In this document: piece after piece, positions 8,233 to 20,830 of the stretch
How the letters are laid out: each line of letters begins with the position of its first letter
How positions within the stretch are numbered: the stretch's first letter is position 1
Assembly (NCBI GenBank): GCA_029263455.1
Contig: JAJCXM010000020.1
Location: forward strand, 250,753 to 291,910
DNA length: 41,158 nt
Reading direction: 5' to 3'
Source of the DNA: Holophagae bacterium
GTDB lineage: Bacteria; Acidobacteriota; Holophagae; Acanthopleuribacterales; Acanthopleuribacteraceae
Position numbers and translations under genes: made by a program
The notes under the pieces: generated by a model
Databases searched by the model: none
What the model was told of the DNA's origin: nothing
The model's input: only the letters and a program-made list of their open reading frames with translations

Positions 8233-9300
8233 TTATTGTGATTCAAGTCTGGCAACGATAGCAGTGGCTTCGGCGTTACCGGATTCGGCTGCCCGTTTAT
8301 ACCAACGCAGTGCTGATGTCTGCGATTTTTGTGTCCCGCGTCCCATCATGTACATGTCAGCAACTGTTTTCTGGGCTAATGCATGTCCAGCCTGCGCGGC
8401 CTTTAGTAGCCATTGCAGTCCCTCTTTGTCCGATGCATTGCGACCTTGTCCCTTGAGGTACATCATGCCAAGCGTCCATTGAGCGTCAACATGGTTTTGG
8501 GCACCAGCTCTACCAAACCAGTCGCCAGCCTCTTCGTAGGAAACTGGCGTCCCTAGTCCGTGATAGAGCAGCCAGGCCAAATTGTACTGCGCCAAAGCAA
8601 CACCTTGGTCGGCAGCATGGCGGGTCCAGCGTTCCGCCTCAATATAATCGGTCTCTACGCCAACGCCTTTAGCGTAGAGTTGACCTAATACAGTCTGAGA
8701 AAGCGGATGCCCTAGCTGTGCAGCCTTTGTAAACCATTCGGCGGCCTTTTTTGCATCTTTGGGTGAACCCTCTCCGTTAAGGTTCATGTCAGCCATCGTA
8801 TACATTGCGCCCGCGTCGTTTTGAAGAGCCGCCGACATGAGCCACTCCTGTGCGCCTTTATAGTCGATTTCGGTACCTATACCTGTCCTTAAGAGACGAC
8901 CGTAAGTAGTCTGTGCTTCGACGACGCCAATTCGTGCTGCACGTGCGAAATATTCTACGGCTTTTTGCTCGTCTTTAGGGTACGCTTCGCTTCCTTCAAG
9001 GTGCCCGTAGGCCATTTCCATCAGTTTGTCTGGAGGGAACTCTTCGGCAATAGCGGAATAGCTGACATTAGGTTGCTCGTCGGCTATAGGGGTTTCAGTT
9101 TCTACGGCAATGTCGGGTGCGGATTCTTGTGGTTGGATATCCGTCGCAACTTTTTGGGCGTCCCGATAAGCCAATGCCATCATGAGGATGATGGCAGTAC
9201 CAAACACGGCTAATGGACCTAGTGCCGATCGCAGTGCAAAACTGCTAGAATGCCCTGCCGGAGGGCTTGATGGATATTTTGGATTCCGACGATCGCGCAT
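8233..9300 (-). CDS. Membrane-anchored Sel1-like repeat protein
   Basis: 355 residues with one transmembrane segment at about residues 25-45 (ALGPLAVFGTAIILMMALAY), then a Pro/Glu-rich linker, then about seven Sel1-like (TPR-related) repeats of about 36 residues with the A-x-x-W-x-x-x-A-A...G...A pattern (for example AAEWFTKAAQLGHPLSQTVLGQLYAKGVG). Such proteins act as protein-interaction scaffolds, often in the cell envelope. The N-terminus is probably cytoplasmic with the repeats outside. The start codon has only a weak upstream GGGG. The first 31 bases overlap the divergent DUF493 gene, and no plausible later start exists because the next Met lies inside the membrane helix. Confidence 0.88.
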   Translation of the reverse strand: MRDRRNPKYPSSPPAGHSSSFALRSALGPLAVFGTAIILMMALAYRDAQKVATDIQPQESAPDIAVETETPIADEQPNVSYSAIAEEFPPDKLMEMAYGHLEGSEAYPKDEQKAVEYFARAARIGVVEAQTTYGRLLRTGIGTEIDYKGAQEWLMSAALQNDAGAMYTMADMNLNGEGSPKDAKKAAEWFTKAAQLGHPLSQTVLGQLYAKGVGVETDYIEAERWTRHAADQGVALAQYNLAWLLYHGLGTPVSYEEAGDWFGRAGAQNHVDAQWTLGMMYLKGQGRNASDKEGLQWLLKAAQAGHALAQKTVADMYMMGRGTQKSQTSALRWYKRAAESGNAEATAIVARLESQ

Positions 9301-9536
9301 GTATTCAGTACCCCTGTACCTGGCATTTCAAGATTATTGGCCGAGATTGCCAACAACTTGAGGAATTAGTAACGACGTTATTCGCGGGCGAACGTTACGA
9401 CGTCACGTTTTCGCGCCACAGCGCCAAAAAGACATACTGCAGCATCAATCTCGCTTTGTGGGTGCAAAACGCGAGCCAGCGTGATCAGGCGTTTCGCAGC
9501 CTAAAAGATGATCCCCAAGTTGTCATGGTGATCTAG
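9270..9536 (+). CDS. DUF493 (YbeD-like) family protein
   Basis: A small cytoplasmic protein of 88 residues. The pattern YPCTWHFKIIG, then a variable region, then VTFSRHSAKKTYCSINLALWV, then FRSLKDDPQVVMVI, matches the ACT-like ferredoxin fold of the YbeD/DUF493 family (pCh.ypiKviG...s.kgkY.S.tv...v.mvl). The family is linked in Escherichia coli to lipoic acid and peptidoglycan gene clusters, but its function is unproven. The ATG at 9270 has GGAGGG at 9260-9265; a TTG one codon before is also possible. It is divergent from, and overlaps by 31 bases, the Sel1 gene. Confidence 0.8.
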   Translation: MDILDSDDRACIQYPCTWHFKIIGRDCQQLEELVTTLFAGERYDVTFSRHSAKKTYCSINLALWVQNASQRDQAFRSLKDDPQVVMVI

Positions 9537-9587
9537 GGGCTTATGCGTCCTGCTGCTTATGCAGCACCCACCCCTTTTTAATTTTTT
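9536..9587 (+). terminator. Intrinsic terminator of the DUF493 gene inside the 3' end of the ligase gene
   Basis: An inner hairpin TGCTGC-TTAT-GCAGCA (9551-9566) is flanked by AGGGG (9536-9540) and CCCCT (9571-9575), which can extend the stem. It is followed by the T-rich tract TTTTTAATTTTTT. The hairpin overlaps the last codons of the convergent ligase-like gene, so terminator and coding sequence share the same bases. Confidence 0.6.
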
Positions 9588-10992
9588 GGTCCCGGTATTC
9601 CTCAGCAAGCTCCAGGATCTGCGGCTTGGAATTGGAAATACGCACCTCTTGTTGTAAGGCATCCTTACGACCCGCACTATAGTCTGTATACGCCAATGTG
9701 TAGGTGGCAAAGGACGCATCCATGCGTTCCTTATTGGTTTTCCAAACGACAATTTTGCGGACCGCAATTTTATCTTTTGACTCTTTTATGTAGACTTCAC
9801 GACTGATGAGATCGATATCTGGAAAATGAATCGCTTGACGCGCTTGTTCGCTGGTGTCGATCAGGATCTGGTCAGTTATTTGATTGATGCGCAAGTCGAT
9901 TGGGTTGACGGATTTGTCGGACCGAAACCGGATGAATTTGCAGTGCCTCAATGAAGCGAATTGTGAGGAACGTAGTAAACGATACTTATTGTCTTTTAAA
10001 CTTAGGGTGGCTTTTCGGATCGGTAATCCATTGTGTCGTTCGGCCACCATGTCGGTGGCGCTAAATTCGATAACTACTTTCGGTTGAACCATCAAGAATG
10101 GCGTCTGGAAGCCGCTCACCTCTAAATAATCCGATTCGGCCGGCTGTTCGCGTAACTGATCATAGAGTTGAGTTTTGTCGAGGTCAGAGAAGCCTTTTTC
10201 AACTGCTGCGAGTACTTGTAAAGTGTTGTCGTCATTGAGCAAAGCTGTTAGGACACTGGTGATGGATGTTTGTTCATCGTCGGCCGTGTAACCAATAATA
10301 ACGGCGTCAGTTGTGTGCTGCGCCTTGAGTTTATAACGAAAGGTTAGATCGCTGCGAATCATCAAACCTTCCGCGTTACGGCTGCCAACCCATAGATCGT
10401 AAAACGACTCAATATCTTTTATTTCTTGAGTCTTGATCATGGGAGGTGGACTAAGTGACGTCGATTCAAAAAGCGTATCTAGGCGCTCGCGTATCTGGAC
10501 ATAGTCCGTAAAGGTCTCGTCGTTGAGCCGCAGAATATCAAATGGTGAAAAACTGAGGGCGGCCAGGTCAGCATCTGTTTTTGGACTCTTGGTTAACGAG
10601 ATGACGTCGAAGACACGCGTTCGCTCTAGCTCAGCCTTTCGAACGAATAATTCGCCCGGGATTAGGGCTTGTCGAATGCCTGCCGCATCAAATATTTGTT
10701 TCGCTTGTTCTAAACAAGGCAGCCCGGTGTAGGCATAACCACGGTGCCGAATGAGGAAAGCTCTTTCGCCGTCGTAATAGAGGTGCGCGTGTTCACCGTC
10801 CAATTTTACCGAAGCGTAGAATTCATGTCCTTGAAGGCGTTTGAGCCCGGCTCGGTCGATCGACTTGAATTTGGATGCAATCCTCAATTTGTATTCTTTG
10901 ACTTGTTGATAGAGTTGGAAATCAACCGCTTCGATAGGGATTTCAACGAAGTCTCCGCGTACGGTCTTGCCTTGGTTTAGATCAATCGACAT
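9541..10992 (-). CDS. ATP-dependent DNA ligase-like protein with extra C-terminal domain
   Basis: 483 residues with covalent-nucleotidyltransferase motifs in order: motif I SVKLDGE (Lys63 is the expected adenylated residue), motif III IPGELFV (Glu114), motif IIIa FSPFDIL, motif IV NAEGLMIR (about 206-213) and motif V RYKLKAQHTTDAVIIG. An OB-fold follows (FMVQPKVVIEFSATD), with the FIRFRSDK segment typical of ATP-dependent DNA ligases. These enzymes seal nicks through an enzyme-AMP intermediate. The last 100 or so residues (from about 380) are not part of a standard ligase and end in EEYRDQKIKKGW, faintly WGR-like. The start is ATG 10992 (TTG 10995 possible). It overlaps the upstream gene's end by about 11 bases, which implies translational coupling. 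An RNA ligase is less likely. Confidence 0.83.
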   Translation of the reverse strand: MSIDLNQGKTVRGDFVEIPIEAVDFQLYQQVKEYKLRIASKFKSIDRAGLKRLQGHEFYASVKLDGEHAHLYYDGERAFLIRHRGYAYTGLPCLEQAKQIFDAAGIRQALIPGELFVRKAELERTRVFDVISLTKSPKTDADLAALSFSPFDILRLNDETFTDYVQIRERLDTLFESTSLSPPPMIKTQEIKDIESFYDLWVGSRNAEGLMIRSDLTFRYKLKAQHTTDAVIIGYTADDEQTSITSVLTALLNDDNTLQVLAAVEKGFSDLDKTQLYDQLREQPAESDYLEVSGFQTPFLMVQPKVVIEFSATDMVAERHNGLPIRKATLSLKDNKYRLLRSSQFASLRHCKFIRFRSDKSVNPIDLRINQITDQILIDTSEQARQAIHFPDIDLISREVYIKESKDKIAVRKIVVWKTNKERMDASFATYTLAYTDYSAGRKDALQQEVRISNSKPQILELAEEYRDQKIKKGWVLHKQQDA

Positions 10993-11692
10993 CAACGTAA
11001 TCTTTCAGCTCCAAATTACTAAGGTGCAAGCTCAGACGATATGCTTCTCCATCAATGGCACCTACCAAGAATGCGCGATAGGGTAGGCCGTCGCGCTGGA
11101 ACCGCAACGGTTCACGACCTTTTTCGCCAGCGCCAATGAGTACCGCGCATTTTCGATCACTCAGATCTTTAGCCATGTGGAATAGATAGTCGTAGGTCAA
11201 GCCATTGACGTGATGGATTTGATAGATCTTGGTGACCGCGACTGATTGAAGCAGCTTCTTGAGTGGTATGTATTTATGTGTCCATACCAGCGGAATCTCA
11301 AGCGTTATGTTGGAAGGTGAAGGGATGTGTTCCTCGCGAATTGTCTCCTGTCCTTTACGGTCATATGTGACGTCTTTGAATCTGAGATGATAAGCAATCT
11401 GTTCGCTGTCATCGACAAAAACTGTTTTGGTGGTCGAGGAGATTTTACCCATGTAGTTGAAGTCAATTTCAGGATCACCCTTGATGAGTAGTTCCTCGAT
11501 TTCCTGCGATTCGTCGATAGACATCTGTTGGATGCGCGCCAAGCTAGACGGAAAAGTGGTCTTAATGACTTTGACCGAAAAAACGCGGTCGTCGTTTTCT
11601 AGTCTAAATTGCGTATCATTTTCCTGGCTGACCGATTCAAAAGCCACGTGCGTATCGCGTTGCTTGGAATCGGTTAAATAAATAGCGCGCAT
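10982..11692 (-). CDS. Conserved-looking protein of unknown function, ligase operon
   Basis: 236 residues, soluble, with no signal peptide and no membrane segment. I do not recognise the family. It appears to have an N-terminal beta-rich part (MRAIYLTDSKQRDTHVAFE, then VFSVKVIKTTFPSSLARIQ) and a C-terminal part with KCAVLIGAGEKGREPLRF and YRLSLHLSNLELKDY. The start has AGGAG overlapping the TAG stop of the gene before it (7-base gap), and its own stop overlaps the start of the ligase-like gene. The three genes are therefore almost certainly co-transcribed and co-translated, and a role together with the ligase is inferred only from this. Confidence 0.8.
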   Translation of the reverse strand: MRAIYLTDSKQRDTHVAFESVSQENDTQFRLENDDRVFSVKVIKTTFPSSLARIQQMSIDESQEIEELLIKGDPEIDFNYMGKISSTTKTVFVDDSEQIAYHLRFKDVTYDRKGQETIREEHIPSPSNITLEIPLVWTHKYIPLKKLLQSVAVTKIYQIHHVNGLTYDYLFHMAKDLSDRKCAVLIGAGEKGREPLRFQRDGLPYRAFLVGAIDGEAYRLSLHLSNLELKDYVDVD

Positions 11693-11699
11693 GGAACTC

Positions 11700-12290
11700 C
11701 TACATCATGCTGAAGTCGATATCGTCTTCATCGTCGAAATCTTCGATTTCAAATCGTTGTGGTTTTTGCAAATAGGAAAGTTTAGTCACTTCGGTAACCA
11801 TCAAGAACAGATTGGCCCCTGTCGGATTGAGAAATGCACGTTTTGGTGAGTGCCCGGCTCGATAGTTGAAAGGGAAAACGAAGAAATCAGCGGACTCAAG
11901 GACTGCATCAGCCAAGCGTTCTTGGTTGTGGGCGCGCAGGACATAAACAGCCGAGACCTCACTTATCAAGAGCTCATCTAAACTCGCTTTTTCTGACAAC
12001 TCAATGGGCTCGTCAAAAGTGGAGGGGAAGGTTTCCAAAGGCACTCCTAACCCATTGACGGCCACTAATTCATTGCGCGAACGCCACAACCTCTCGTCAT
12101 CCATGTAACCCATGCCGCTCGATTGAATAAGTACGCTGCCCCATTCATCCAAATAGCCTTTGTGCAAGGGCTCGCCCTTGGCGCTTTCGACAACGATTTC
12201 CTTGCGACCATACAACTTTGTGCGGTCCACTTTGTCCACCGTACATTCGAATTTGGACTCACCCAAAATAAAAGTAAGTTTACGCGCCAT
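11700..12290 (-). CDS. Unknown protein with acidic C-terminal tail, first gene of the ligase operon
   Basis: 196 residues, soluble, no recognised domain. The N-terminal half looks beta-rich (RKLTFILGESKFECTVDKV, KGYLDEWGSVLIQSSG). A central segment, FFVFPFNYRAGHSPKRAFLNP, contains aromatic and basic residues. The protein ends in IEDFDDEDDIDFSMM, a very acidic tail that resembles in composition the DFDDDIPF tip of bacterial single-stranded-DNA-binding proteins, although it is not the exact motif. It is the first gene of the three-gene unit and is divergent from recC with a 76-base gap. The ribosome-binding site is weak. Confidence 0.78.
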   Translation of the reverse strand: MARKLTFILGESKFECTVDKVDRTKLYGRKEIVVESAKGEPLHKGYLDEWGSVLIQSSGMGYMDDERLWRSRNELVAVNGLGVPLETFPSTFDEPIELSEKASLDELLISEVSAVYVLRAHNQERLADAVLESADFFVFPFNYRAGHSPKRAFLNPTGANLFLMVTEVTKLSYLQKPQRFEIEDFDDEDDIDFSMM

Positions 12291-12327
12291 AGCCTGCCGA
12301 TTAGTCGTTTAGAGTAATTAACCCACC

Positions 12328-12334
12328 TATAATA
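12328..12334. promoter_or_regulatory. Overlapping divergent -10 elements between ligase operon and recC
   Basis: TATAAT (12328-12333, plus strand) is a perfect -10 for recC, with the start codon 33 bases beyond it. The same bases read on the minus strand give TATTAT (12334-12329), a 5/6 match pointing at the unknown-protein/ligase operon. No clear -35 hexamer was found for either direction. Confidence 0.4.
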
Positions 12335-12366
12335 GCAGGGTCGTAATTCATAAAAGAGACGAGTTC

Positions 12367-15300
12367 ATGACTTCGCTCATTGTTACTCAAAGTAATCGCC
12401 TAGAACGTTTGGCCGATGCCGCCTGTGCATGGCTACGTGCGCCCTTAAGTCATCCACTCGAAAGCGACGTTGTAATTGTGCAAAGTCGCGGTATGGCGAC
12501 TTGGCTGGCTCGTGTTCTAGCCAATGACCGCGGCATTTGCGCCAATGTTAGCTTCCCTTTTCCCAAAAGTGCGCTCACGGAATTGGTTGATATCGTATTG
12601 GGACCCGACCAGAATTTTTTTCAATGTTTCGCCAAGGAAACGACCACCTGGCGTTTGTTAGAGCTTTTACACGATCGTGAAAAGCTATCCACATACACTG
12701 AAGTCGCAAATTACGTCGACGGCAACGCCGACCGTCGTTTGAGTCTAGCGGTGCGCATCGCCGATATGTTCGAGCAATACCTCGTTTATCGAATGGACAT
12801 GCTTAGGGATTGGGAGCAGAAAAAGCAGGATCCAGCTCACTGGCAAGCCGATCTATGGCTTGCACTCGTTGCCGAATTCCACACTTCACCTTGGCTGATA
12901 ACTACACAGCTCATCGATAAAATACCGCGCTGCCCGTCGTTACCTGAACGTATGGCTGTTTTTGGACCGGCAACGTTGCCGCCTCTGTATTTACAGATCC
13001 TTCAATCGCTTGCGTCAGTACGACCCGTTCACCTTTTTGTACACGCACCTTCTCCGTTCTACTGGGGAGATGTACGTACGCGTTCCAGTCAAATTCGTGC
13101 AGCCGTCGAGTCAGGATTGGATGAATTGGAAACGGAATCCGTATTGCTTTCGTCATTCGGGAAAATCGGTCGCGACTTTCAAGTCATGCTTGAGGCCTTT
13201 CCGTATATCGATGTGCCAGGCGACTTTTTCGAAAAACCAGAGGAGAAAAACCTGCTCAACGTCTTACAGGCCGACATTTTTTATGCGCGTGGACGAGATG
13301 AGTGTGCCGCTTACGAATGGCAAGTGGACGACGACTCGCTTGAATTTCATGCCTGTCATTCCCCGATGCGGGAAGTGGAAATTCTTAGAGATCAATTGCT
13401 TGATCTATTCGAGAACTCGGATCTGCGTCCCGATCAGGTCGTTGTCATGATGCCGGATATCGATGCTTATGCGCCTCTCATCGAAGCGATTTTTGCGATT
13501 GATCCTCTGGATCCCTTATTTATTCCCTTTACCGTATCTGACCGCGCCCACCGCGAAGCATTCTCGACCATCGAAGCTTTTCTGGCTGTTTTGGATGTGT
13601 TTGATTCGCGTTTTTCGGCGGCCCAAGTGGTTGATATACTCGCGTACCCAAGTATTCAATCGGCATTTGACCTTAATTCTGATGAGGTTGATCGAATTAC
13701 CGAATGGGTTACTCAAGTAAAGATTCGCTGGGCTGCCGATAAAGATCATCGGCAACAAGAGGGCCAACCCGGAAGTGACTTGAACACGTGGAACTACGGT
13801 CTAGAACGCCTGTTTCTGGGCTATGCATTTCCGTCTCAAGGCAGCCGTTTCTTTGGTGGGCGACTGGGATATGATCATGTTGAAGGTCAAGACATTATGG
13901 TCTTGGGCAAATTGTCTAGATTTGTGCGAAACCTAACCGAACTACGCTGTATCGCCAGTCGACCGCAAACAATGCCTGCATGGATCACATGGTTAAACGC
14001 GGTTTTGGATAAGCTCTTCTCAAGCAGCAAGCAAAATGCATATGAAGTTCACGTTTTGAGACAGGCTGTCTCAGAATTGACCCGCGCCAGCGAGTCGTTG
14101 ACGATAGAAATGCCGTTGAGTTTAGCCGCGATTCGAGGCCAGATGGTGGCACGATTGGAGGCCGTTCCCATGCGGGCTCGTTTCCTTAATGGTGGTGTTT
14201 CTTTTTGCGCGTTATTACCCATGCGCGCCATTCCGTTTCCCGCCATTTTTCTGTTGGGCCTGTCTGAGACAGCGTTCCCGCGAAGCATGATCCGTGACCC
14301 GTTGGATCTCATGGCCAACAAGCCCAAATTAGGGGACCGTTCGCGCCGCAACGATGACATGTTTCTATTTTTGGAGACGCTTCTCTCGGCCCGTCAAAAA
14401 CTCGTCATTTCATACGTGGGTCAAAGTCAAAAAGATAACCGGGAACGGCCGCCGTCTGTTGCTGTTTCGTCATTGTGGGATGCCATTTGTGCGCGCGTTC
14501 GCTTCCCGCAGGGCGCGCCGCCGAACCATGCGACTTTAAAAGAGTACCTGGTGAAAAGACATCCATTACAGCCCTTTTCTGTGCGTTATTTTTCTGAACC
14601 CAGTCCGTTTTTCTCCTATTCTGATGTTCACCTGGCAGGTGCCAAAAAATTGTTAGCTCCGCGACTCGGTGCTCGGCCGTTCATTACGCAACCAATTCCA
14701 GCTGAGATTCCAAACGAACTAGATCTGAAGCAATTAGTGAAATTCTTTAAAGATCCGGTTCGAACCTGGTTGCGTCAACGACTGGGTGTTGAAGATGAGC
14801 GACGAGTCGACGAACTAGCGCACGGCGAACGTACGCAAATTACACACCTTGAGCGTGAGTATCTAGGTCGCTTCGTTATTCGTAAGTCGCTGTTTCAGGT
14901 GCCTGTCGGTTATGACGAATTACTGGCATTAGGTTTACTCCCGCAGGGTGGGTTAGGTCGCGCTGAATATGAATCGGTGTTGCAAAATGTGGAGCCGATG
15001 CTCGCCGAGTTAGGCACGCTTTGGTCGCAGCCGCGGCCTGACGCTAAGCTGATTGAAGTACCCCTCGCTCACTGTGTATTAACAGGCGCCATTCACGATT
15101 GGAGAGGCACAAACCTGATCCGCTTCAATTTCGGCAAAAAAGCAGCGCGTCATTTGATGGCAACCTGGATTCAGTTACTCGCGGTCAGTGTCGCAGAGTC
15201 GGAAAACTGGAGCGCGAATCACGTGTTTAAGGGTGAAAAGTATAAACAGGCCGCAAACATCCACATCGCTGCACCTTCAAATTCCGCTAAGGTACTTTCA

Positions 15301-15540
15301 GATCTCGTTCAGCTATATCAGGAAGGCTTGGCGCAACCCTTACCTCTTCCTGCCGATGCTGCACTGGAAATGATCAACAAGTCCGGATCCGTCGATTTGC
15401 GTCAAGTATGGCTGAATGCCACTAATCGAGTCGGCCAAGCATGGTGGCAGCGTGTTTTTGAGGTTAATGACGCATTGCTAGATAAGTTTCGCGACACAGC
15501 GGAACGGGTATATGCACCTTTGCAGGACCAACTATCATGA
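12367..15540 (+). CDS. recC: Exodeoxyribonuclease V gamma subunit, RecC
   Basis: 1057 residues, slightly shorter than Escherichia coli RecC (about 1120). The N-terminus LIVTQSNRLERLADAACAWL, then VIVQSRGMATWLARVLA and NVSFPFPKSAL, is the RecC signature. FLLGLSETAFPRS is the degenerate helicase-like segment. In the RecBCD complex RecC splits the DNA duplex and recognises the Chi sequence. The gene's last four bases, ATGA, are shared with the recB start. No ptrA protease gene lies between, unlike the E. coli arrangement. Confidence 0.95.
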   Translation: MTSLIVTQSNRLERLADAACAWLRAPLSHPLESDVVIVQSRGMATWLARVLANDRGICANVSFPFPKSALTELVDIVLGPDQNFFQCFAKETTTWRLLELLHDREKLSTYTEVANYVDGNADRRLSLAVRIADMFEQYLVYRMDMLRDWEQKKQDPAHWQADLWLALVAEFHTSPWLITTQLIDKIPRCPSLPERMAVFGPATLPPLYLQILQSLASVRPVHLFVHAPSPFYWGDVRTRSSQIRAAVESGLDELETESVLLSSFGKIGRDFQVMLEAFPYIDVPGDFFEKPEEKNLLNVLQADIFYARGRDECAAYEWQVDDDSLEFHACHSPMREVEILRDQLLDLFENSDLRPDQVVVMMPDIDAYAPLIEAIFAIDPLDPLFIPFTVSDRAHREAFSTIEAFLAVLDVFDSRFSAAQVVDILAYPSIQSAFDLNSDEVDRITEWVTQVKIRWAADKDHRQQEGQPGSDLNTWNYGLERLFLGYAFPSQGSRFFGGRLGYDHVEGQDIMVLGKLSRFVRNLTELRCIASRPQTMPAWITWLNAVLDKLFSSSKQNAYEVHVLRQAVSELTRASESLTIEMPLSLAAIRGQMVARLEAVPMRARFLNGGVSFCALLPMRAIPFPAIFLLGLSETAFPRSMIRDPLDLMANKPKLGDRSRRNDDMFLFLETLLSARQKLVISYVGQSQKDNRERPPSVAVSSLWDAICARVRFPQGAPPNHATLKEYLVKRHPLQPFSVRYFSEPSPFFSYSDVHLAGAKKLLAPRLGARPFITQPIPAEIPNELDLKQLVKFFKDPVRTWLRQRLGVEDERRVDELAHGERTQITHLEREYLGRFVIRKSLFQVPVGYDELLALGLLPQGGLGRAEYESVLQNVEPMLAELGTLWSQPRPDAKLIEVPLAHCVLTGAIHDWRGTNLIRFNFGKKAARHLMATWIQLLAVSVAESENWSANHVFKGEKYKQAANIHIAAPSNSAKVLSDLVQLYQEGLAQPLPLPADAALEMINKSGSVDLRQVWLNATNRVGQAWWQRVFEVNDALLDKFRDTAERVYAPLQDQLS

Positions 15541-18500
15541 GCTTTTCTCCATTTGAGGTTACCCTCGAAGGTCGTCACTTGGTGGAAGCAAGCGCCGGAT
15601 CTGGGAAGACCTACAATATTGTTCGTATTTATCTGAGGTTGGTCTTGCAGCTGGATGCAAAGCTCGAGAAGATTTTGGTCGTCACCTTTACCGAAGCCGC
15701 AGCCGCTGAACTGAATGAACGTATCCGGGATTTGTTAGTTTTGGCTGTCTCTGTGCTCGAAGGGACTCAGTCGGACAGTGAATTGACCGAGTTTTTTGCA
15801 ACTCGTTCGAATCCAGATAAGGATCGCCATATCCTGAACCTGGCGATCCGGAGTTTTGATCGTGCGCGCATCAGTACGATCCACGGATTCTGTCACAAGA
15901 TCCTTACGGAATTTGCCTTCCTAGCTGGCCAATCATTTACCCAGAAACTAGTTCCTAGCCAAAAAGAATGGTTACACGAATTGGTTGACGATTTTAAGGT
16001 GCGATTCTGTTTTGAGATAGATACGCGAACGGTGCAGCTACTAGAGTCCTTTTCTCCTTCTGATTTGCACAAGATTGTAGAGATAGGTTGTGCGGATTCA
16101 CAGGCACCTCTGGCGCACGAATATGTGAAACCCGCTAGTTTGGCTTTACTACAACAGGAGCTGATTAGCACTTGGCGTGACAGATCTGAAGATCTATTGG
16201 CCTTGTTGGTCCAAAAGAAGACGCACTCTGGGCGTCTTCGGGCGATTAGGGAGCATTTCGGAAGGATGTCAGATCATGAGTATGTGGATCATGAGGTCGA
16301 TAAGACTTTTGTCAGTTTATTGAAGGAAGATGACAAACACCATTTGCATCACCCTTTTGTTTTGTCTGTGCGTCGTTGGGTAGAAGCAAGTACGCAGTGG
16401 CGGCTTTTTTTTACCACATCACTGGTTAACTTTGCACGCGAGGCATTCGTGCAGCGGAAGCGGCGGGCAGACGTTATGTCGTTTGACGACGTCTTGACTC
16501 AATTAGACGAGTCATTGAACGGGCCCAATGGGGTGAGACTCACCCGATCTGTTCAGGAAAGTACGCCGTTTGCTCTTGTTGATGAATTTCAGGATACCGA
16601 TCCAGTACAGGCACGGATATTCGAACGATTATTTGCCGATCGTGGTTGTCTCTTCACGATAGGTGACCCAAAACAGTCAATTTATGGTTTTCGCAGAGCT
16701 GACATTCGCGAGTACTTACGATTCAAGAAATTATCCGGCATGGTAACGCACCGATTAGATTCCAATTGGCGATCGAGTAACGCGCTCATCCTGGCAGTCA
16801 ACCGCTTATTCTCAACCATAGATTCGGCATTTGCTCATCCAGAAATCCAGTTCAGACCGGCTTTGCCAGGCGGACAGGCGCGTCCTCTGTTGGGTGGTCA
16901 AGCAGCCATCGCTCCATGTCGCATTTCGGTACTTGAAGGCAGCCGAAATAGTGATTTGGAGTTGGACGCAGTGCAACTCTTAGTCCAAGAAATCAACGAT
17001 CTATTGGTACAACAAAAAAAAGATAATCTGCCTTGGAAAGCACGCGATGTGGCGGTATTGGTCCACACTCATGCCCAGGCTAGTCAGGTTGTGTTGGCTC
17101 TGACACAACGAGGGATCCCCTGCTCTTATCAGGGCGCAAAAAACGTGTTTGAGGCGGAAGAGGCAGAGGATCTCGCTGTGATCTTGGCGGCAATCGCAGA
17201 GCCCAGGCAGCTTGCTCTTGTTAAACGTGCTCTGGTGACACCGATCATGGGCTTTGACGCGCGTGAATTGCTCTTACTAGAAGAGGATTTGTCGCAGTGG
17301 TCTGAAGTGGTCTTGCATTTTCGCAGCCTACGAGAAACCTGGGCCGAGCGTGGCTTTATCCGCATGTTCCGCCGCTTTGTTTCTCGCTGGGATCTTGAGT
17401 CTCGTTTGCTTGGAATGGAACAAGGTGAACGCCGCTTGACCAACTTCTTGCAATTAGGTGAGCGCTTGGGGCAAGTGGCCCATCGGCATCATCTGGGGCC
17501 AGCGGCGTTGTTGAGATGGTTGGACCGCCGCCATCTCTTGAACGAATCTGAAGATGAAATAAGATTGGAGACGGATGAAGATGCGGTTCATGTCATGACC
17601 GTATTTGCCAGTAAAGGTTTAGAATTCTCAGCCGTCTTTTGCCCCTTTTCGTGGATGGCGCCCAGAAAACTTAGCGACAAGATTGCCCTGCAGTTTGCTG
17701 AGGATGGCTCAAGGTCACTTTTGTTTGCAGATAGTGAGGGCTGGGATACTGTACGCGCGGGGCTTGAGCATCAGCAACGGGCTGAAAGCATGCGATTACT
17801 ATATGTGGCGCTGACAAGGGCTCGGGACTTCTTGCATGTATTTGTGGGATGCGGGACTCGTGCAGAGTCGATGTCGCCATTGAACGCGTTAATCGTTCGC
17901 GAGCAGCAGTGGACCGACGCCAAACAAGGTGACAAAAAGCGACCGCTACAATGGCAATCGGCGATTGATTTTTGGACGCGAGAAACGACGATAGATATTC
18001 GTTGGGCCGAACTCAATCCTGCGCCTGTTGACCATCAATCAAGCAACCCACCAAAGACACTTACTGCAAGAGCCAAGAAAAAGAAATTGCCTGAATCGAT
18101 TCGACAAACCAGTTTCAGTATGATTACTTCTGGCGGATCGCACCTTGATACTCCAGGCTGGGTTGATGACGAACCGCATGAAATGGGCATGGTGATCCCG
18201 GATGACGCCAGTCCAAACTTTGCTGATTTCCCCCGTGGAGCACAAGCTGGTAACTGTTTACATAGGATGCTTGAAGGCATCGACTTTCAGGATGAGCCGA
18301 GCAAATGGCAGCCTGTAATTCTGGACAGTTTGACTCGATTTGGCTATTCATCCGACCGAGCCGAATCCGTCTCTCAAGCTCTGCAAAGTGTTGTGCAAAC
18401 GCCTTTGGATACAAGTGGCCTCAGTTTGGCGCAGATACCCATGGCTAAGCGCTTAGTTGAGTGGGAATTTACGATGCCACTTACCCGGCAAAACAAGAAA

Positions 18501-18950
18501 TTGAGTCCGTCTGAGCTGGCCCGAGTCTTCGGAATTGAAGGTGGGCAAACACCCGTTTCGTACCATCTCGAACTTGCCAAATTGGAGTTCAGAGTCGTTG
18601 AGGGTTTTTTGAAGGGCTTTGTTGACCTTGTATTCGAACATGCAGACCAATGGTTCGTGATTGATTACAAGAGCAATGATTTGGGACCTAACTTAAGTGA
18701 CTTTCACCCTCAAGCGATGACGAAAGAAATGGTCCGCCACCATTACATCTTGCAATATCACCTTTACAGTGTGGCGTTACACAAATACCTGCAAGTAACC
18801 AAAAACGATTACGATTACGATAAGCATTTTGGCGGCGTCTACTATTTGTTCTTGCGTGGGATGGCGAAGCACGAAGGTGTCGGCGTCTATTGCGATCGAC
18901 CACCCAGGAATCGTATTGAATCATTACTGCAATTGATGAGAGCATCATGA
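15537..18950 (+). CDS. recB: Exodeoxyribonuclease V beta subunit, RecB
   Basis: 1137 residues, about the usual length. It is a UvrD-type helicase with Walker A EASAGSGKT (residues 17-25), early motif Ia VVTFTEAAAAELNERI, Walker B LVDEFQDTDPVQ, motif III GDPKQSIYGFRRAD, and motif VI LLYVALTRAR. The C-terminal nuclease domain has the RecB-family residues in FLKGFVDLVFEHADQWFVIDYKSN, with QYHLYSVALHKYL after it. It unwinds and degrades DNA ends 3' to 5' and loads RecA after Chi. Translation is probably coupled to recC and recD through ATGA overlaps at both ends. Confidence 0.96.
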   Translation: MSFSPFEVTLEGRHLVEASAGSGKTYNIVRIYLRLVLQLDAKLEKILVVTFTEAAAAELNERIRDLLVLAVSVLEGTQSDSELTEFFATRSNPDKDRHILNLAIRSFDRARISTIHGFCHKILTEFAFLAGQSFTQKLVPSQKEWLHELVDDFKVRFCFEIDTRTVQLLESFSPSDLHKIVEIGCADSQAPLAHEYVKPASLALLQQELISTWRDRSEDLLALLVQKKTHSGRLRAIREHFGRMSDHEYVDHEVDKTFVSLLKEDDKHHLHHPFVLSVRRWVEASTQWRLFFTTSLVNFAREAFVQRKRRADVMSFDDVLTQLDESLNGPNGVRLTRSVQESTPFALVDEFQDTDPVQARIFERLFADRGCLFTIGDPKQSIYGFRRADIREYLRFKKLSGMVTHRLDSNWRSSNALILAVNRLFSTIDSAFAHPEIQFRPALPGGQARPLLGGQAAIAPCRISVLEGSRNSDLELDAVQLLVQEINDLLVQQKKDNLPWKARDVAVLVHTHAQASQVVLALTQRGIPCSYQGAKNVFEAEEAEDLAVILAAIAEPRQLALVKRALVTPIMGFDARELLLLEEDLSQWSEVVLHFRSLRETWAERGFIRMFRRFVSRWDLESRLLGMEQGERRLTNFLQLGERLGQVAHRHHLGPAALLRWLDRRHLLNESEDEIRLETDEDAVHVMTVFASKGLEFSAVFCPFSWMAPRKLSDKIALQFAEDGSRSLLFADSEGWDTVRAGLEHQQRAESMRLLYVALTRARDFLHVFVGCGTRAESMSPLNALIVREQQWTDAKQGDKKRPLQWQSAIDFWTRETTIDIRWAELNPAPVDHQSSNPPKTLTARAKKKKLPESIRQTSFSMITSGGSHLDTPGWVDDEPHEMGMVIPDDASPNFADFPRGAQAGNCLHRMLEGIDFQDEPSKWQPVILDSLTRFGYSSDRAESVSQALQSVVQTPLDTSGLSLAQIPMAKRLVEWEFTMPLTRQNKKLSPSELARVFGIEGGQTPVSYHLELAKLEFRVVEGFLKGFVDLVFEHADQWFVIDYKSNDLGPNLSDFHPQAMTKEMVRHHYILQYHLYSVALHKYLQVTKNDYDYDKHFGGVYYLFLRGMAKHEGVGVYCDRPPRNRIESLLQLMRAS

Positions 18951-20830
18951 GGCATCAACATGGGTGGCCGGTGGCCGGTTTCTTTGAACCTGCTCATGTC
19001 GCTTTTGCTGAAGCGATGCACCAGCTCTTGCCCAGCCTTACGCTAGAGGAATTATTAGCCGCGGCGCTTGCATCACGTGCAGTAGAAACAGGTAGCGCTT
19101 GTGCAGATCTCAACTGTCTACCTTATGAATTCGAAGTTGAAGGCGAAAAACATAAGATCCAATGGCCTGAGCGTTTGAGTTGGCGGCAAGCTTTGCTCGA
19201 TAGTGCTCTTTTCGCAAAACCAGGGCAGATAGAAGAGAAACCGCTCTTTTTTGATGGTCACTCGCGCGTATATCTGGAGCGGTATCATGCTTACGAACAC
19301 ACATTGGCTTCTTTTGTAGCCACCTGTCTAGCTTCTCATGAGGAGCTAGACCTGGTTTGGGCGCAGTCGGTTCTCGCTATGCTCTTCCCCTCGCGCAACG
19401 GTATCGACATGCAAGCGGTGGCAGCTGCTTTGGCTCTGAGATCCCGCTTAACCATCGTCTCTGGAGGCCCTGGCACGGGAAAAACGACGGTCGTTACACG
19501 TCTACTTGCAATGCTGATTGCTTGGCAACGAAAACATGATCTAGCTAACCCACGAATTGCCCTGCTTGCTCCAACCGGGAAGGCGGCTACTCGATTAGCA
19601 GAAGCTATTCGCGGTCAAAAGCAGACATTGCCTAACGCGCTCAAGTGGGTCTGCGACGCTATTCCTGATGAGGCCAGTACCATTCATCGCTATTTAGGTT
19701 GGCAGCCGTATGCGCCCACCGAGTATTTCCACAACGAACATCATCCCACTGCGGCTGATATTGTTGTAGTCGACGAATGTTCCATGGTGGATTTGGCCAA
19801 TCTGGCCAAACTCGTTAAAGCACTTAAAGCCAACAGCAAATTGATTCTTCTTGGGGACCATCACCAGTTAGCCTCGGTCGAGGTAGGGACCGTCTTAGGC
19901 GATTTAGTGCGCGAAGAACGCGACTGGACCTGCTCTCAGGAAACGGCCAACTATTTGGCGAAGGTTTTAGCTCTTGAAACGAAACATAGGCCTCGTACGC
20001 AGAACAGGCGTGGAATCTGGGACCATGTGGTCGTGTTACAGAAGAGTTTTCGATTTGACAATACGAAGTCGTTGGGTCGTTTTGCTGCGTCAATCCGGTC
20101 CGGCTCGCCTTCGTCTATGAATGAGTTGAAGTTGGCTAACGACGGTCACATCACCCAATTCGAGAATGGCTACGCCGATCAAGTCGCTTTTTCTCAACAA
20201 GTGATCAGCGGGTTCGAGTCTTATTTGCGTGCCGGTGACCCTGAACGACTGCTGCGACATTTTGAAGACTTTCGTGTTCTGTGCGCCCATCGGCAGGGCG
20301 TGGATGGCGCCGAGCAAGTTAATGTAGCCATTGAGCGAATTTTGGAGGAGGCGGGCCTGCTGTCGCCCCATTCAATTTGGTACTCTGGGCGCCCAATCAT
20401 GATTACGCGCAACGACTATCAATTAGGATTGTTTAATGGCGATATGGGCGTTTGTTTTAAGCAAGAAAATGGCGATATGGCCGTGGCCTTCCCACCATCA
20501 TCGGGCAATGAGATTCGATGGTTCTCTCCTTTTCAGCTACCACCTTGTGAGACGGCATTTGCCTTGACGATCCACAAGAGTCAAGGGAGCGAATACGAAC
20601 GCGTTGCGCTTGTTTTACCAGAACGCGATTCACGCGTCATGACGCGGGAGCTCATTTATACCGGTCTAACACGGGCAAGGTCACAGGTGGCAATCTTTGC
20701 CTCGTCAGCGAGCTTGGCAGCTGCATTGGCGAGGCGTGTTGATCGAGCATCCGGGTTGGGTCAACAGTTTTGGACGCCAATGCAATCAATGTTGGAAGGT
20801 GAGCAACTCAATCTGTTTGTTGACAACTGA
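18947..20830 (+). CDS. recD: Exodeoxyribonuclease V alpha subunit, RecD
   Basis: 627 residues, close to the 608 of Escherichia coli RecD. It has an N-terminal domain of about 150 residues, then a superfamily 1B helicase core: Walker A SGGPGTGKTT (about 172-181), LLAPTGKAATRLAEAI, Walker B VVVDECSMVDL, LLGDHHQLASVEVG, and the C-terminal ALTIHKSQGSEYERV with ELIYTGLTRAR. It is the 5'-3' motor of RecBCD. It starts on the last bases of recB (ATGA). No clear terminator was found in the short gap to the convergent SCO gene. Confidence 0.95.
   Translation: MRHQHGWPVAGFFEPAHVAFAEAMHQLLPSLTLEELLAAALASRAVETGSACADLNCLPYEFEVEGEKHKIQWPERLSWRQALLDSALFAKPGQIEEKPLFFDGHSRVYLERYHAYEHTLASFVATCLASHEELDLVWAQSVLAMLFPSRNGIDMQAVAAALALRSRLTIVSGGPGTGKTTVVTRLLAMLIAWQRKHDLANPRIALLAPTGKAATRLAEAIRGQKQTLPNALKWVCDAIPDEASTIHRYLGWQPYAPTEYFHNEHHPTAADIVVVDECSMVDLANLAKLVKALKANSKLILLGDHHQLASVEVGTVLGDLVREERDWTCSQETANYLAKVLALETKHRPRTQNRRGIWDHVVVLQKSFRFDNTKSLGRFAASIRSGSPSSMNELKLANDGHITQFENGYADQVAFSQQVISGFESYLRAGDPERLLRHFEDFRVLCAHRQGVDGAEQVNVAIERILEEAGLLSPHSIWYSGRPIMITRNDYQLGLFNGDMGVCFKQENGDMAVAFPPSSGNEIRWFSPFQLPPCETAFALTIHKSQGSEYERVALVLPERDSRVMTRELIYTGLTRARSQVAIFASSASLAAALARRVDRASGLGQQFWTPMQSMLEGEQLNLFVDN

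Follow-up and report, generated by a model that had tools for sequence, protein, structure and literature searches.

A conserved module of two predicted Ku-like proteins and an ATP-dependent DNA ligase with a WGR-like domain as a probable divergent form of prokaryotic end joining

What do an ATP-dependent ligase and two small proteins of no recognised family do together on the chromosome of a Holophagae bacterium? The question was raised by a first-pass annotation of the window, by which we mean the whole 41,158-nucleotide stretch analysed here, part of an assembly of 6.2 Mb with acidobacterial MAGs as its relatives. That annotation placed three minus-strand genes at 9541-12290, with a 7-base gap, a ribosome-binding site on the preceding stop codon and a short overlap, all of which is confirmed from the sequence. 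Gene A (11700..12290 (-), 196 aa) encodes predicted Ku-like subunit 1, with an acidic C-terminal tail of the FDDEDDIDFSMM type at 11703..11744 (-) that is conserved on comparison with homologues. Gene B (10982..11692 (-), 236 aa), encoding predicted Ku-like subunit 2, follows after the 7-base spacer GAGTTCC (11693..11699 (-)), the purine-rich ribosome-binding site TAGGAG beginning on the gene A stop codon. Gene C, the ATP-dependent DNA ligase (9541..10995 (-)), counts 484 aa from a TTG start and overlaps gene B by 14 bases, or 483 aa from the ATG at 10992, with an overlap of 11 bases. The module promoter presumably lies between gene A and recC, in the divergent intergenic region of 76 bases at 12291..12366. 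Beyond this gap recC (PF04257, RecC_C) and recB (UvrD helicase plus PD-(D/E)XK) lie within 12367-20830 (+), divergent from the module, followed by what is probably recD at 18947-20830 (+). In a same-genus genome (locus L006) recC/recB occupy the same place beside the module, and a probable Myxococcota carrier (L146) has a RecB/AddA-like gene about 3 kb away; a probable end-joining module adjoining resection genes suggests pathway choice. At the other end an 89-aa ORF at 9267-9536 (+), which we take to resemble a DUF493-type protein, is convergent with the ligase gene and has a counterpart at the same position in L006 (10136-10396).

The last gene had been read as an ATP-dependent ligase with intact motifs, and this reading stands, the enzyme being of the DNA type. 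Pfam matches above cut-off to DNA_ligase_A_M (PF01068, residues 39-224, E 1.2e-12) and DNA_ligase_A_C (PF04679, residues 243-361, E 1.2e-7) delimit a nucleotidyltransferase and OB-fold core at 9913..10881 (-), residues 39-361, and a PDB profile search returns DNA ligases at E 1e-25 to 1e-5. With motifs I, III, IIIa, IV and V and an OB domain, gene C falls within the ATP-dependent DNA ligase superfamily; the motifs read KLDG (64-67), GELF (114-117), FDIL (152-155), EGLMIR (209-214) and YKLK (221-224), and ten nucleotidyltransferase motif residues were checked, every one of them being conserved in 52 or more of 53 ligase homologues. Among NCBIfam models TIGR02779, which describes the ligase domain of non-homologous end joining (NHEJ), comes closest (E 1.4e-15; the score of 57.3 is below the cut-off of 227.8), and with no polymerase-domain (PolDom) or phosphoesterase (PE) match gene C is not LigD as curated. 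The C-terminal stretch of some 90 residues (about 395-484; 9544..9813 (-)) aligns with WGR in hhalign (prob 87.8, P 3.3e-6), the aligned part being confined to the last 42 columns (residues 444-484); its score of 38.0 compares with 17.9 for the best of 100 column shuffles. The curated WGR profile (PF05406) has no match in 30 ligase C-terminal domains searched against Pfam as single sequences, and the profile alignment marks the stretch as a divergent WGR-like domain. WGR, a DNA-break-sensing fold known from PARP1-3, binds both ends and nicks.

Conservation of the gene order was then read from genomes carrying gene B, of which 56 were found, in Acidobacteriota, Planctomycetota, Bacteroidota, a phylum of large genomes that is probably Myxococcota, and two Asgard-binned MAGs. 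As can be seen from the loci read in detail, the ligase lies directly downstream of gene B in 50 of 50 (median gap 11 bases), and gene A is present in 49, co-directional in 47 and divergent in two, both of them Pyrinomonadaceae-like genomes. Chance falls far short of explaining such an arrangement. HMM scans place A and C around nearly every gene B, and a ligase C search of 61 relatives gave one remnant and four ligases of full length, all four accompanied by A and B; a single-sequence ligase C scan of genome contigs returned no match. The first-pass annotation had held that conserved co-occurrence of all three genes beside the same ligase would support a system, and it is such a conserved three-gene system that we find across genomes. 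If gene B is taken as Ku-like, its invariant downstream neighbour is an ATP-dependent ligase linked to Ku.

Several altered copies were seen alongside. At L005 (1498-2337 (-), genome G004) the N-terminus of gene A is fused in frame to the ligase C-terminus, which looks like a deletion of gene B and the ligase core in a genome that also has fuller copies (L003 and L004). The ligase gene of L008 (8696-10138 (+)) is interrupted in frame by a single stop codon, located after the OB-fold and before the WGR-like domain, reflecting a pseudogene, a sequencing error or a split gene. At L070 a ligase homologue with a degraded motif I (no Lys) has as neighbours a gene B match of reduced length and a divergent gene A tail, and is probably a decaying or repurposed copy.

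The first-pass annotation set the partners apart from polymerase/nuclease partners. In some genomes an optional polymerase/phosphatase partner also exists: at six loci in two phyla a primase-polymerase fused to a HAD phosphatase (AEP-HAD) adjoins the module. In five acidobacterial loci it lies directly downstream of the ligase gene, with gaps up to 253 bases and one about flush; in the sixth, a planctomycete locus, it is divergent from gene A and split by apparent frameshifts. Copies beside the module are found at L009 10407-11597, L129 9872-11029, L130 9771-11027, L131 4510-5799 and L132 4519-5778. The protein, of about 400 aa, consists of an AEP primase-polymerase domain and a HAD-phosphatase-like domain; PF22548 scores above cut-off in two of four AEP-HAD proteins, and the nearest relative is the AEP domain of TOTE conflict systems, the match to the TOTE AEP family being weak. 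Seven carriers have AEP-HAD relatives of full or nearly full length, in six of them beside the module; most module carriers, including the genome of this window, lack AEP-HAD. A polymerase and a phosphatase correspond to the end-processing needs of NHEJ, so the neighbour fits such a pathway, and AEP-HAD is possibly a new end-healing polymerase. It could also fill gaps in a module working like LigC/Prim-PolC, in single-strand gap or base-excision repair and not in double-strand break joining. The nick binding of WGR domains also suits that role, as does the core of gene C, which stands alone, with no fused PolDom or PE, as in LigC. Each complete module, however, has two Ku-like subunits, and Ku-type rings recognise double-strand ends; we therefore hold it rather unlikely that the module shares the single-strand gap or base-excision repair role reported for mycobacterial LigC (PMC5663958).

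Genes A and B had been called unlike Ku. The Ku hypothesis came first, by eye from alignments, and the fold searches followed; with the Ku fold in view, an idea drawn from the acidic tail, that gene A is SSB-like with an OB-fold, was given up. Neither gene A nor gene B has a meaningful match in Pfam, NCBIfam, PHROGs or PADLOC. The Pfam Ku profile (PF02735) finds nothing in 103 sequences (A, B and 101 homologues) or anywhere in the genome holding this window, and PDB sequence-profile searches of A and B gave no match, fold comparison alone doing so. The label of unrecognised proteins therefore holds for the 236- and 196-residue products in Pfam and falls in Foldseek, where Ku comes first. With AlphaFold2 models (mean pLDDT 74 for A and 71 for B), the best PDB Foldseek matches of gene A are B. 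subtilis and M. tuberculosis Ku (E 1.3e-5, prob 1.00) and those of gene B are all Ku (E 4e-5, prob 1.00), M. tuberculosis Ku, B. subtilis Ku and human Ku80 being top-ranked for both. VIA-align gives Z 11.4 for gene A, with 148 residues aligned to B. subtilis Ku, and Z 12.2 for gene B to Ku80 (121 residues at 3.1 A) and Mtb Ku (165 residues). In a viral library the only confident matches of gene B are two phage Ku proteins. Over most of each protein the predicted models thus adopt the Ku core beta-barrel fold, and the two partners, Ku-like in predicted fold though invisible to the Pfam Ku model, look like DNA-end-recruiting subunits, in keeping with the recruiting role once proposed for them; the best reading is accordingly a divergent kind of end joining and not a complex without Ku.

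The SPOC fold is a relative of the Ku barrel that lacks the bridge by which DNA is encircled, and SPOC domains (PHF3, SPOCD1, FPA) appear in the same fold searches at Z 9.3-11.4 over shorter stretches; the bridge region of the gene B model, residues 23-102, is of low confidence. A and B might on these grounds be SPOC-like scaffolds that tie the ligase to another partner instead of ringing DNA ends. We consider this quite improbable: Ku covers 148-175 residues of gene A against about 99 for SPOC, Ku is first in all three fold searches, the confident viral-library matches are Ku only, and the paired ATP-dependent DNA ligase, WGR-like domain and AEP neighbour all suit NHEJ.

The two proteins were also compared at profile level. 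The A-B profile-profile score of 31.7 exceeds the maximum of 23.9 in 100 column shuffles, so that A and B are homologous subunits, and their HMMs never cross-match, implying that the duplication is old. Gene A aligns co-linearly with the canonical Ku profile over 153 columns, and of 599 shuffles 15 score as high and not one gives an alignment longer than 125 columns, a result suggestive of homology and not proof of it; for gene B the score against the Ku profile is within the shuffle null. Sequence-level Ku homology of the two proteins is accordingly weak. The gene A tail is itself a recurrent feature, with 45 of 51 gene A proteins ending in a hydrophobic-DF motif plus one to three residues within a strongly acidic stretch, and a mean net charge of -9.6 over the last 25 residues of the homologues. 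Bacterial Ku recruits LigD through its C-terminal region (PMC9638933, PMC12784961), and by analogy the acidic tail may recruit ligase C.

Searches with the B profile across whole genomes found carriers in 7 of 347 Acidobacteriota, 6 of 246 genomes in the planctomycete phylum and 1 of 296 in the Bacteroidota set. An alignment of gene B against GTDB contigs placed the module in acidobacterial, Bacteroidota, Planctomycetaceae and "proteobacterium" MAGs and in a Lokiarchaeota-labelled MAG; the phylum of the "proteobacterium" MAG, probably Myxococcota, has 37 carriers among 284 genomes, and that of the Lokiarchaeota-labelled MAG 2 among 119. The two Asgard-binned carriers are short contigs (L015 and L074, 4 and 11 kb), the first having a gene A with a Lys-rich N-terminal extension. 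The module possibly occurs in Asgard archaea, the two contigs carrying it either as a native gene or through binning contamination. Sporadic distribution across phyla and a fourth gene whose closest counterpart is the TOTE AEP domain would suit a defence or mobile-element conflict system employing end-joining enzymes, a very remote prospect given that there is no PADLOC match, no module homologue in phage, plasmid or viral-contig collections (the plasmid search returned generic ATP ligases only, and no module relative), no recurrent defence gene near the module, and recBCD as the neighbour in this genome.

We think it likely that the module is an NHEJ system in which a Ku-like A/B heterodimer encircles DNA ends and brings in the WGR-ligase. 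Fold and constant A-B pairing suggest a dimeric ring that would bind DNA ends and which on the predicted models would be built from two homologous but distinct Ku-core subunits and would thread onto the ends of a double-strand break. Ligase C would then be brought to the ring, probably through the acidic tail of gene A and/or the WGR-like domain, to adenylate and seal the ends, and the WGR-like domain, as its counterpart in PARPs does, may recognise the nick or 5' phosphate. Gap filling would fall to AEP-HAD or to other polymerases of the cell, and AEP-HAD, where some acidobacterial and planctomycete genomes have it, would add end cleaning.

The module would work like the Ku and LigD system of Mycobacterium, Bacillus and Pseudomonas, with which it shares a predicted Ku-fold end-binding protein beside a dedicated ATP-dependent ligase and, as an option, an AEP polymerase and end-cleaning phosphatase. 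It differs in having two distinct Ku-like subunits instead of a homodimer and no detectable Pfam Ku signature, in a ligase with a WGR-like domain and neither PolDom nor PE, and in a polymerase-phosphatase that is a separate, usually absent protein. With eukaryotic Ku70/Ku80 and Lig4 it has in common two divergent Ku-like subunits in a predicted heterodimer-type arrangement and a separate ATP ligase, but A and B are without vWA, SAP or C-terminal helical domains, and ligase C has neither BRCT domains nor the DNA-binding domain found at the N-terminus of Lig4. The module is also linked to PARP1-3 and bacterial WGR proteins by its WGR-like domain, a reader of DNA ends in PARPs that is fused here to a DNA ligase. 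LigC is not known to have a WGR-like domain or Ku-like partners in the same operon; what the LigC/Prim-PolC complex (PMC5663958) shares with the module is a stand-alone ATP ligase core and, in some genomes, a separate AEP protein. Sinorhizobium and Streptomyces likewise have more than one ku gene per genome, and heterodimers have been speculated on (PMC5124664), but theirs are closely related paralogues of canonical Ku, dispersed together with LigD/LigC, while the highly divergent A and B share a single, constant operon with one ligase.

Bacterial end joining was still described in 2025-2026 as the work of a homodimeric Ku with LigD (PMC12784961, PMC13201618), and conventional homologues of these two are what surveys of NHEJ count (PMC7719229, PMC11936186). 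The open-access literature searched, which included no preprints and few subscription papers, contains no description of divergent, heterodimeric or WGR-ligase bacterial NHEJ. Canonical Ku is absent from 37 of 39 carriers tested, a count that is uninformative given the base rate, and mutual exclusion of canonical Ku and the module was not supported, 2 co-occurrences being observed against 3.4 expected (237 genomes), a shortfall not beyond chance. That the A/B Ku heterodimer is obligate in a separate NHEJ lineage of bacteria and native to some Asgard archaea, with a direct bearing on the origin of the eukaryotic Ku70/Ku80 heterodimer, strikes us as quite improbable. The module has been missed by standard annotation and recurs in several bacterial phyla, possibly also in Asgard archaea. 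If confirmed, it would be a second bacterial NHEJ architecture, composed of a heterodimeric Ku and a WGR-ligase, and genomes scored as NHEJ-negative, including the 37 carriers above, may have the pathway; it would also offer a compact alternative end-joining toolkit and a small prokaryotic model in which to ask why Ku turned heterodimeric.
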